64,000 bases of DNA from the NCBI RefSeq assembly GCF_039645585.1, contig NZ_CP147915.1:1-64000 (forward strand), read 5' to 3'. The position numbers and the translations under genes are program-made. Under the pieces are notes generated by a model. The model did no database searches and had not been told where the DNA came from. It saw nothing but the letters and a program-made list of their open reading frames with translations. Position 1 is the stretch's first letter. The number at the start of each line of letters is the position of its first letter. Of this stretch, positions 1 to 5,107 are shown piece after piece. The stretch is from Sulfurimonas sp. HSL-1656. Its GTDB lineage: Bacteria > Campylobacterota > Campylobacteria > Campylobacterales > Sulfurimonadaceae.

Positions 1-23
1 GCATTCTGCTTCAAATTGTCTGC

Positions 24-46
24 TATAATTCACATCATTATTCACA
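24..46 (+). promoter_or_regulatory. dnaA promoter overlapping two DnaA-box-like sites (oriC1-like)
   Basis: A TATAAT preceded by TGC (an extended -10) lies at 24-29. It overlaps TAATTCACA at 26-34, and a second box, TTATTCACA, lies at 38-46. TTATTCACA resembles the DnaA boxes known for Campylobacterota. The overlap of box and -10 suggests that DnaA represses its own gene and that this is the upstream half of a bipartite origin. The region continues left of the window, so the number of boxes is unknown. Confidence 0.6.
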
Positions 47-76
47 TTGTGGAAATTATAGCGAACGGGAGCTGCG

Positions 77-1411
77 ATGACGATCGGCGATACGATTCTG
101 GAGATGCTTAAAGAAGAGATCAGCGAAGTTGAATACAACCGCTACGTCAAACAGATGAGCTTCCTTTCCAAGGCATCGCGCAGCGACCTTGCCGTGTTCG
201 AAGTGCCCAACCCCCTCATTGCCAACTGGATCAAGAACCGCTATACAAACAAGATCGCCCACCTGTTCGAGCTCAAAACCGGCACCTCCAGGGAGGTCAT
301 CATAAGGGTGAAAAAACCCAAAGGGGCCACCGGCAAAAGCGGCGGCTCGGTTACATCGGCTCCGGTCGAAGCACCGAAACACTCCATGCTCAACCCCGCC
401 TACACCTTTGAGAACTTCGTCGCCGGCAGCTCGAACCAGTTCGCCTATGCCGCGGCCAAGAGCGTCAGTGACCGTCCGGGGCAGGTCTACAACCCCCTCT
501 TTATCTACGGCGGGGTGGGTCTGGGTAAAACCCACCTCATGCAGGCGATCGGCAACGTGGGGCTGCTGCAGGGCAAAACCGTCGTCTACACCTCCGTCGA
601 GCAGTTCGTCAACGACTTTACGCGCCATCTGCGCAACCAGACCATGGACCGCTTCAAGGAGAAATACCGCCAGTGCGATCTGCTCCTGATCGACGACGTC
701 CAGTTCCTCAGCAACAAGATCCAGACCCAGGAGGAGTTTTTTCACACCTTCGAAACCCTGCGCAGCGAAGGCAAACAGATCGTCCTCACCGCCGACAAAC
801 CCCCCAAGCGCATCGCGGGCCTCGAAGCGCGGCTGCAGAGCCGGTTCGAATGGGGCCTCGTCGCCGATATCCAGCCCCCGGAACTGGAAACGAAGATCGC
901 CATCATCCGGAAAAAGTGCGACATCAACCGTGTTATCCTCGGAGACGACGTCGTCAACTATATCGCCACCGTCATCGACAACAACACCCGCGAGATCGAG
1001 GGGATCCTCTCCAAGCTGCACGCCTACTCCCAGCTGATGCACCAGGAGATCACCCTGGACTTCGCCAAAAACGCCCTGCGCGAACAGCTCCAGGAGAAGA
1101 GCGACAATATCTCCATCGACGGCATCATGAAAACCATCGCCAAAGAGCTCAACGTCAAACCCAGCGAGATCCGCTCCAAAAGCCGCAGCCGCAACATCGT
1201 CGCCGCCCGCCGCGTCGCCATCTACCTCGCCCGGGAACTGACCCCCATGTCCATGCCGCAGATCGCCCAGTATTTCGGGATGAAAGACCACAGCACCGTC
1301 AGCCATACGATGAAAAAGATCCACCAGCTTCTCGAAGAGGATGAGAACTTCAAGGTCAAGATCAACGAGCTGCATAACAAAATCACCGCCATGCCGCCGG
1401 AGAGTGTCTAA
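77..1411 (+). CDS. dnaA: Chromosomal replication initiator protein DnaA
   Basis: ATP-dependent initiator that binds DnaA boxes and melts the origin. At 444 aa it has the usual family length. Domain I is about residues 1-80, a short linker follows, then an AAA+ domain with Walker A GGVGLGKTH near residue 145 and Walker B LLLIDDVQF near 202. A C-terminal DNA-binding domain carries the DnaA signature DHSTVSHTMKKI near 404. The start is the first ATG after a GGGAGC ribosome-binding site. DnaA-box-like sites lie on both sides of the gene, as in the bipartite origins of Helicobacter and relatives. It is followed by dnaN and gyrB, the classical origin order. Identification is secure. Confidence 0.98.
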   Translation: MTIGDTILEMLKEEISEVEYNRYVKQMSFLSKASRSDLAVFEVPNPLIANWIKNRYTNKIAHLFELKTGTSREVIIRVKKPKGATGKSGGSVTSAPVEAPKHSMLNPAYTFENFVAGSSNQFAYAAAKSVSDRPGQVYNPLFIYGGVGLGKTHLMQAIGNVGLLQGKTVVYTSVEQFVNDFTRHLRNQTMDRFKEKYRQCDLLLIDDVQFLSNKIQTQEEFFHTFETLRSEGKQIVLTADKPPKRIAGLEARLQSRFEWGLVADIQPPELETKIAIIRKKCDINRVILGDDVVNYIATVIDNNTREIEGILSKLHAYSQLMHQEITLDFAKNALREQLQEKSDNISIDGIMKTIAKELNVKPSEIRSKSRSRNIVAARRVAIYLARELTPMSMPQIAQYFGMKDHSTVSHTMKKIHQLLEEDENFKVKINELHNKITAMPPESV

Positions 1412-1454
1412 AAAAGCGGCCAGAACCTATATTTTCTTTGCAAATAAAAAAAGA

Positions 1455-1460
1455 TATAAT
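1455..1460 (+). promoter_or_regulatory. Putative dnaN promoter -10 element
   Basis: TATAAT preceded by an A-rich stretch, about 145 bases before dnaN and inside the dnaA-dnaN gap. Transcription from here would run through the DnaA boxes and the AT-rich unwinding candidate. No good -35 is visible, which is common in this phylum. Confidence 0.4.
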
Positions 1461-1476
1461 GTGCCAAGTGAACAAA

Positions 1477-1594
1477 TGTGAAGAAGCTCTCCGGCTTTAT
1501 TCACATGGGAAGAGCCCCAAAAGTAGGGACGTTTTCTGCTTTTTCACAAAAAAACGGCAGACTACTATCATCTACTAAAAATTTAAATATATAA
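1477..1594 (+). other. Putative oriC2: DnaA boxes, DnaA-trio-like repeats and AT-rich unwinding region
   Basis: The dnaA-dnaN gap holds TGTGAAGAA at 1477-1485 (reverse-strand box with mismatches), a full TTATTCACA at 1497-1505 and TTTTTCACA at 1540-1548 (one mismatch). Next come a short GC-containing spacer and a run of ACT/ATC triplets at about 1561-1576. The AT-only tract AAAAATTTAAATATATAA at about 1577-1594 ends just before the dnaN ribosome-binding site. Box, spacer, trinucleotide repeats, then AT-rich DNA is the arrangement of the basal unwinding system described for Bacillus subtilis, and it fits the downstream oriC half known in Helicobacter pylori. Function is inferred from layout only. 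Confidence 0.7.
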
Positions 1595-1605
1595 CAGGAG
1601 TTTCG

Positions 1606-2676
1606 ATGCAGTTCGAGATCGCCAAATCCGTTTTGGAAAATATCCTGATCCACACCCAGCCGTTTCTGGAGAAAAAAGATCTCTCCCAGATCACCTCCCA
1701 CCTCTACTTCGAAGCGACTGCATCGAATACCCTGACCGTCAAAGCGACCGACTATGAGATCGGTCTTGTCATCGAAGCCGAAAACATTCATGTCTCCGAA
1801 CCCGGTATGGCCACCGCCAACGGAAAGAAACTCCTTGATATCGTCCGTATTCTCAGCGACGGCAACGTCAACCTTACGACCAAAGACGGTATGCTCGATA
1901 TCACCCAGGGCCACTCTGACTTCCAGCTTCCCATGTATAACGCCCAGGAGTTCCCTGCTTTTGCAAGCATCGAGAACAAACCCGGGGTCGAGATCGATTC
2001 TGGTCTGCTGATCAACTCCCTGAAAAAGATCACTCCGGCCGCAGACACTAACAACCCGAAATTCGAGCTCAACGGTGCCCTGATCGATATCAAAGCCGAT
2101 CAGATCAACTTCGTCGCTACCGATACCCGCCGCCTGGCCATCATCAGCCTCTCCCAGAACAACGGCAGCGAACTCTCATTGATCATTCCCAAAAAAGCGA
2201 TCATAGAGATCCAGAAGCTCTTTACCAGCAATATCGACATCTTCTACGATGCCACCCATCTGCTGATCAAATCCGACCAGTACACCTTCTTTACGAAACT
2301 GATCAACGGAAAGTTCCCCGACTACAACCGTATCATCCCCGCATCGACACGCTACAACCTCACCCTCCCCAAAAGCGACATCGTCAACGCCATCAAACAG
2401 ATCACGACGATCTCCAATGACATGAAACTGACCCTGGAAAGCGGCCGTATCCTTTTTGAAAGTCTCAGCGACGAGAACAACAAGGCCTCGACGGAGATCA
2501 ATGTCGATACGGGGATCGATTCGACGTTCGTCTTTGCTGTCAACAGCCGTTATATACTCGACTTCCTCGGGCAAATCGATCAGACCCAGTTCACGATCGG
2601 CCTGAACGAACCCAACATGCCTTTCATGCTGCAAGAAGAACAGTTCAAAACGATCGTCATGCCGATCGTCATCTGA
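1606..2676 (+). CDS. dnaN: DNA polymerase III beta subunit (sliding clamp)
   Basis: Ring-forming processivity clamp of DNA polymerase III. It has 356 aa, close to the usual 360-375, in three similar domains of about 120 residues. The N-terminus MQFEIAKSVLENIL and the C-terminus ending in MPIVI match the family pattern, where the hydrophobic C-terminal strand lines the partner-binding pocket. The ATG follows an AGGAG ribosome-binding site at 1596-1600. The gene sits directly downstream of the candidate origin. Position and sequence make the call secure. Confidence 0.96.
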   Translation: MQFEIAKSVLENILIHTQPFLEKKDLSQITSHLYFEATASNTLTVKATDYEIGLVIEAENIHVSEPGMATANGKKLLDIVRILSDGNVNLTTKDGMLDITQGHSDFQLPMYNAQEFPAFASIENKPGVEIDSGLLINSLKKITPAADTNNPKFELNGALIDIKADQINFVATDTRRLAIISLSQNNGSELSLIIPKKAIIEIQKLFTSNIDIFYDATHLLIKSDQYTFFTKLINGKFPDYNRIIPASTRYNLTLPKSDIVNAIKQITTISNDMKLTLESGRILFESLSDENNKASTEINVDTGIDSTFVFAVNSRYILDFLGQIDQTQFTIGLNEPNMPFMLQEEQFKTIVMPIVI

Positions 2677-2760
2677 CCCGACCTTCTCTTTTTTTTCCGC
2701 AGGCATTGCCTGCTCCTTTACTTCTCAGCCCATAAAATAAATTTATTAGCCCTTTTTGGA

Positions 2761-2766
2761 TAAAAT
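2761..2766 (+). promoter_or_regulatory. Putative gyrB promoter -10 element
   Basis: TAAAAT within TTTTTGGATAAAATTAAA, 28 bases before the gyrB start. T-rich DNA followed by GGATAAAAT is typical of housekeeping promoters in Campylobacterota. The hairpin-forming GCAGGC-TGCCTGC at about 2700-2714 separates it from dnaN. Confidence 0.45.
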
Positions 2767-2779
2767 TAAACCCATTTAG

Positions 2780-5107
<2,328 letters not shown>

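Follow-up and report, generated by a model that had tools for sequence, protein, structure and literature searches.

A putative oriC2 with a register-shifted DnaA-trio array in the dnaA-dnaN gap of a Sulfurimonas chromosome

The gap between dnaA and dnaN in Sulfurimonas sp. HSL-1656 very probably holds oriC2, that part of a bipartite origin (ruvC-oriC1-dnaA-oriC2-dnaN) at which the DNA unwinds, with a DnaA-trio array that is split into three motifs, one extra nucleotide and two further motifs. We analyzed the first 64,000 nucleotides of the contig (hereafter, the window) together with the corresponding gaps of its relatives. The bipartite origin, unwinding at oriC2 and the presence of trios in this family were already published in 2016, and the window's origin is expected from that work. 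The conserved +1 register shift is, provisionally, new: we found no published description of a phase shift or an interrupted trio array in the main texts of the papers searched. A conserved +1 shift is not predicted by the current model, which allots three bases to each DnaA protomer and has opening slowed when the register changes by 1 bp. Carried by a majority of the relatives searched, the shift is a testable natural exception to the three-base rule of Bacillus subtilis, and close species that differ by the extra base alone amount to a natural experiment on the rigidity of the DnaA-ssDNA filament.

Gene order, strand asymmetry and DnaA boxes

The closed chromosome is 2,556,179 bp long and its contig join is the start of the window. 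The order ruvC-dnaA-dnaN-gyrB, which the epsilonproteobacterial bipartite oriC requires, is present: gyrB begins at 2795, after dnaN, and ruvC sits in divergent orientation at the opposite end of the contig. The dnaA-dnaN gap occupies 1412-1605, and the ruvC-dnaA gap spans the join and measures 151 bp by alignment with a relative in which both genes are contiguous (G003, whose DnaA is 98% identical to that of the window). Sampled every 64 kb, GC skew has mostly positive values between 20 kb and ~1.28 Mb and mostly negative ones beyond ~1.34 Mb, up to the last sample of the contig. It flips sign where the contig ends meet, near dnaA, and again near 1.3 Mb, and its local cumulative minimum falls 5.6 kb into the window, within ~6 kb of dnaA. 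Skew minima are imprecise at the scale of a few kb, and the origin is at the dnaA region to within that accuracy. An earlier note, which placed an origin here, had proposed the skew as a check; the sign change near dnaA agrees with it, and the inversion elsewhere that it had considered as a refutation was not borne out. The genus belongs to the Sulfurimonadaceae, and the chromosome encodes HobA, the epsilonproteobacterial DnaA-binding orisome factor (G000:C1:1624140-1624676, minus strand; PF12163, 3.1e-66).

DnaA boxes were scanned for by the TTCAC core, the hallmark of this group (PMC5043019). The features on either side of dnaA are as follows.

About -62 (minus), -51 (plus) and -42 (minus): three further oriC1 boxes, beyond the circular join, in the last part of the contig
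26-34, plus: oriC1 DnaA box TAATTCACA (TTCAC-core scan)
38-46, plus: oriC1 DnaA box TTATTCACA (TTCAC-core scan, alignment)
77-1411, plus: dnaA (open reading frame; PF00308 match, 3.1e-66)
1455-1460, plus: TATAAT, a -10-like element and candidate dnaN promoter (alignment, 6/6 genus members)
1467-1475, minus: weak DnaA box TTGTTCACT with a TTCAC core, facing away from the DUE (sequence)
1477-1485, minus: DnaA box TTCTTCACA, facing away from the DUE (sequence; kept in the genus alignment)
1497-1505, plus: DnaA box TTATTCACA, facing the DUE (sequence, scan, alignment)
1540-1548, plus: DnaA box TTTTTCACA, facing the DUE; corresponds in alignments to the upstream box of the tandem pair seen in the family
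1548-1556, plus: decayed DUE-proximal box, its core at 1551-1555 reading AAAAC where most relatives have TTCAC
1606-2676, plus: dnaN (open reading frame)

Five boxes in total make up oriC1 in the ruvC-dnaA gap and two outward pairs make up oriC2, and the TTCAC-core clusters flank dnaA on both sides, as expected of a bipartite oriC. Among all 300-bp windows in the 884 kb of genome sampled, strict boxes are most numerous in oriC1 (three) and then in the dnaA-dnaN gap (two, a count tied with one other locus). The same enrichment is seen among relatives: 94 oriC1 gaps contain 448 TTCAC cores where 28.5 are expected (~16-fold), 163 oriC2 gaps contain 583 where 49.7 are expected (~12-fold), and each of the 94 relatives whose ruvC-dnaA gap could be read has at least three cores there. 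The search of positions 1-3000 returned no Rfam match, and no terminator was found in the dnaA-dnaN gap. The TATAAT element lies inside oriC2, upstream of the boxes, and is itself preceded by an A-rich stretch.

The box nearest the array differs from the usual family arrangement. In loci with the 16-nt form of the array (see below), the tandem TTCAC cores are spaced by 8 in 64/74 cases and the last core stops 6 nt short of the first motif in 61/74. The TTTTTCACA core lies 14 nt ahead of the first trio, and in the window's genus this distance reads as 6 + 8, with the upstream box kept and the DUE-proximal one decayed. This loss would be tolerable, because in B. subtilis, of the two boxes, just the upstream one was required for strand separation (PMC8287927). 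With two mismatches to TTATCCACA and a distance of 13 nt to position 1562, TTTTTCACA falls within the published box criterion of the B. subtilis basal unwinding system (BUS; at most two mismatches to TTATCCACA and at most 16 nt from the trios).

The trio array and its register across relatives

We read trios by the published convention, in which 3'-GAT-5' on the trio strand is 5'-CTA-3' on the top strand. Downstream of the boxes, the gap then reads as follows.

1555-1560, plus: GC-containing spacer CGGCAG (sequence)
1562-1577, plus: DnaA-trio array CTA-CTA-TCA-(T)-CTA-CTA (sequence, alignments)
1562-1564 and 1565-1567: CTA motifs one and two
1568-1570: degenerate third motif TCA
1571: extra base T
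1572-1574 and 1575-1577: CTA motifs four and five
1578-1594, plus: AT-only tract, the main part of the DUE (sequence; its position matches P1-nuclease-mapped DUEs, PMC5043019)

The third motif has lost its central base (1569 is C), leaving only two contiguous perfect trios. The published BUS search rule asks for three or more NAN motifs in a row, all in one register (NTN as read on the top strand); it fails on CTA CTA TCA and overlooks origins like that of the window, while in G004 and G001, where the third motif is TTA, three such motifs are found. Taken alone, the window array is not significant, its score being matched or beaten by 39/400 dinucleotide shuffles, because its third trio is TCA; for G004 and G001, 0/400 shuffles score as high. 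Of the five closest genomes, four have the same C at 1569 (G000, G003, G005 and G007). It is on the strength of conservation, rather than of a single-genome score, that we regard the window's array as real. Trios without the central adenine have been anticipated as a cause of missed origins (PMC8287927), and the window, as read here, is such a case.

These features sharpen the earlier note, whose observation is confirmed in part and whose interpretation is supported in part. The origin, the DUE, the BUS-like layout and the bipartite arrangement that it described are well supported. Its TTATTCACA box, its further near-box (which is TTTTTCACA), its GC-containing spacer and its AT-only tract are all present, as are boxes upstream of dnaA, two in the window and three past the circular join. 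The ACT/ATC triplets that it placed at about 1561-1576 were a misreading: the invariant T/A columns of the alignments sit in the CTA frame, 1562-1577, and on this ground the ACT/ATC frame was rejected. In the CTA frame, the triplets are conserved in genus and family, so that a lack of conservation, the other refutation which the note had considered, was not borne out either. A close match to B. subtilis was too strong a claim for an array with two contiguous perfect trios, a TCA, a 1-nt shift and no hit by the BUS rule. The readable trio tract stands as a conserved array but not as the first of its kind, since trios were reported in this group before (PMC5043019) and tested in Helicobacter pylori (PMC8235120, PMC8287927).

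To compare registers, we assembled the dnaA-dnaN gaps of 80 named contigs and of more than 100 further genomes from the family and order. The arrays take two forms, one of 15 nt with five motifs in register and one of 16 nt with three motifs, one base and two motifs; a first classification of 160 distinct gaps gave 78 sixteen-type and 73 fifteen-type arrays, using the T positions themselves and thus circular with regard to register. In the sixteen-type class, itself defined by T positions, positions 12, 13 and 15 are T, A and T in 77/78 loci each, and position 11, the centre of the old register, is free (C40 A21 T10 G7). A non-circular test anchored 144 loci on the box and the first three trios only and located the next TAYTR. 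It lies at offset 2 (+1 register) in 77 loci, at offset 1 (in register) in 37 and at offset 10 in one, and is absent from 29; no TAYTR occurs at any other offset among these anchored loci. Other shifts (-2, -1, +2, +3) or break points were rejected as a general rule, as they concern few loci and no TAYTR is found there. An independent whole-genome pattern scan of 200 family genomes recovered the exact +1 form 113 times and the exact in-register form 56 times, against about ten and about five for the respective reversed-pattern controls. Both patterns are matched in four genomes (G312, G352, G362 and G374), where five in-register motifs are followed by one base (G) and then by another two motifs.

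On a DnaN tree, the +1 form is dominant in the Sulfurimonadaceae and recurs in family f6 (g71, g76) and once in f18. At least 15 switches between the two forms are counted, five of them forced by well-supported branches, on a FastTree topology whose deep branching is uncertain and whose switch counts do not separate gain from loss.

Three further observations concern individual loci. Sulfuricurvum-like loci (L059-L063, L054) have arrays such as TTATTACTA-A-CTACTA-A-CTATTT, with two successive 1-nt shifts. Three loci of family f11 (L216, L218, L224) have no recognisable trio array past the box, unlike close relatives in the same family. One contig titled Crocinitomix (Bacteroidota; L089) contains a Sulfurimonas-type dnaA-dnaN locus that falls within Sulfurimonas on the DnaN tree, and is probably a mislabelled or contaminated MAG.

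A possible filament path and its alternatives

By homology with the known systems, DnaA would bind the outward-facing boxes (1467-1548) and loop to those of oriC1. The DUE-facing box at 1540-1548 would feed DnaA protomers over the GC-containing spacer and onto the strand complementary to 1562-1577, where each protomer would capture two bases per trio and the AT tract would open; the region opened by this DnaA is predicted to be 1562-1594. Aligned to PDB 8btg, the DnaA of the window keeps most of the trio-pocket residues of B. subtilis (N187 as N179, E183 as E175, E228 as E220, K222 as K214 and the arginine finger R264 as R256), and three are changed (R202 to K194, I190 to T182 and I193 to L185). 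No DnaA residue clearly tracks +1 versus in-register species.

The extra base would be placed beside the third, uncaptured base of trio 3, so that the filament may bridge a protomer step of 4 nt instead of 3 nt and retain the two distal sites. It is possible, and we advance it only tentatively, that the DnaA filament of the Sulfurimonadaceae is adapted to the split array (3 + 1 nt + 2), with one fixed point, after the third protomer, at which a 4-nt step is allowed. If so, the strict spacing of 3 nt measured for the DnaA-ssDNA filament in B. subtilis would not be general, and the third motif may dispense with its central adenine, as in this species. The distal motifs appear to be under constraint, because only offsets 1 and 2 occur with TAYTA kept. 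Against such a filament stands the slowing of unwinding by a register shift in B. subtilis; the distal pair could be dispensable or have another role, and most of the melting may be done by the AT-only tract.

It is somewhat unlikely that the extra base is neutral, with the work left entirely to the first three trios and indels past trio 3 drifting while AT-richness is kept. The repeated switching on the DnaN tree fits such drift, and H. pylori and B. subtilis function with in-register arrays, but drift predicts offsets such as 0, 3 and 4 and erosion of TAYTA, whereas only offsets 1 and 2 are found and the motif is kept. We consider it quite unlikely that the distal motifs (NTACTA) are the -10 element of a dnaN promoter or the site of another protein, the trio array proper being the first two or three motifs. 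A promoter-like TTCACA-17-TATCAT (1543-1571, 10/12) does overlap the array, and the array end reads CTATAAT or CTAAAAT in several relatives. However, 0.6 matches of this type are expected per shuffled region, the TATAAT farther upstream (1455-1460), conserved in the genus, is a better match, and the distal TAYTA unit occurs at two offsets only, with offset-1 species continuing the same trio register. That the array is chance AT-rich sequence and the true unwinding site lies elsewhere, for instance in oriC1, is hardly credible: the single-genome score and the distance of the skew minimum from dnaA leave room for it, but skew minima are not precise to a few kb, the array is conserved across genus and family, and unwinding is exclusively at oriC2 in Sulfurimonas denitrificans, Wolinella succinogenes and Arcobacter butzleri (PMC5043019).

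Comparison with known origins

Thermotoga maritima, of a different phylum, offers a precedent for a split array. In the portions of its oriC account considered here (PMC10316083), separate DnaA-trio and eTrio modules have different duties, the distal block is the essential one (the eTrio), and there is no description of a conserved 1-nt phase shift.

The B. subtilis BUS (incC) shares with the window a box, a GC spacer, a trio array and an AT tract, and the trio-pocket residues are kept in part, with the three changes given above, but it has six contiguous in-register trios and two boxes, unlike the window (PMC6669920, PMC10721633). There, DnaA captures the first two bases of each trio and the third faces away (PMC10721633), and a 1-bp deletion slows opening while a 3-bp deletion does not (PMC6669920).

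The oriC2 of H. pylori (ts1/ts2) shares tandem DUE-facing boxes, a GC-rich spacer, trios and an AT tract, and mutations in its boxes and trios abolish unwinding or viability (PMC8235120, PMC8287927). Its array, TAG-TAG-CAG-TAA-TAG, keeps a single register, whereas the array of the window shifts by 1 nt after motif 3; also unlike H. pylori, the window has a degenerate third motif and has lost the DUE-proximal box.

A close counterpart is S. denitrificans, a member of the same family with the gene order of the window, TTCAC-core boxes flanking dnaA on either side, outward oriC2 box arrays and a DUE in the dnaA-dnaN gap. A difference is that its DUE measures 40 bp with 20% GC. In vitro, its oriC2 has been shown to unwind and to form a loop with oriC1, and the trio motif has been reported there as well as in A. 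butzleri and W. succinogenes (PMC5043019).
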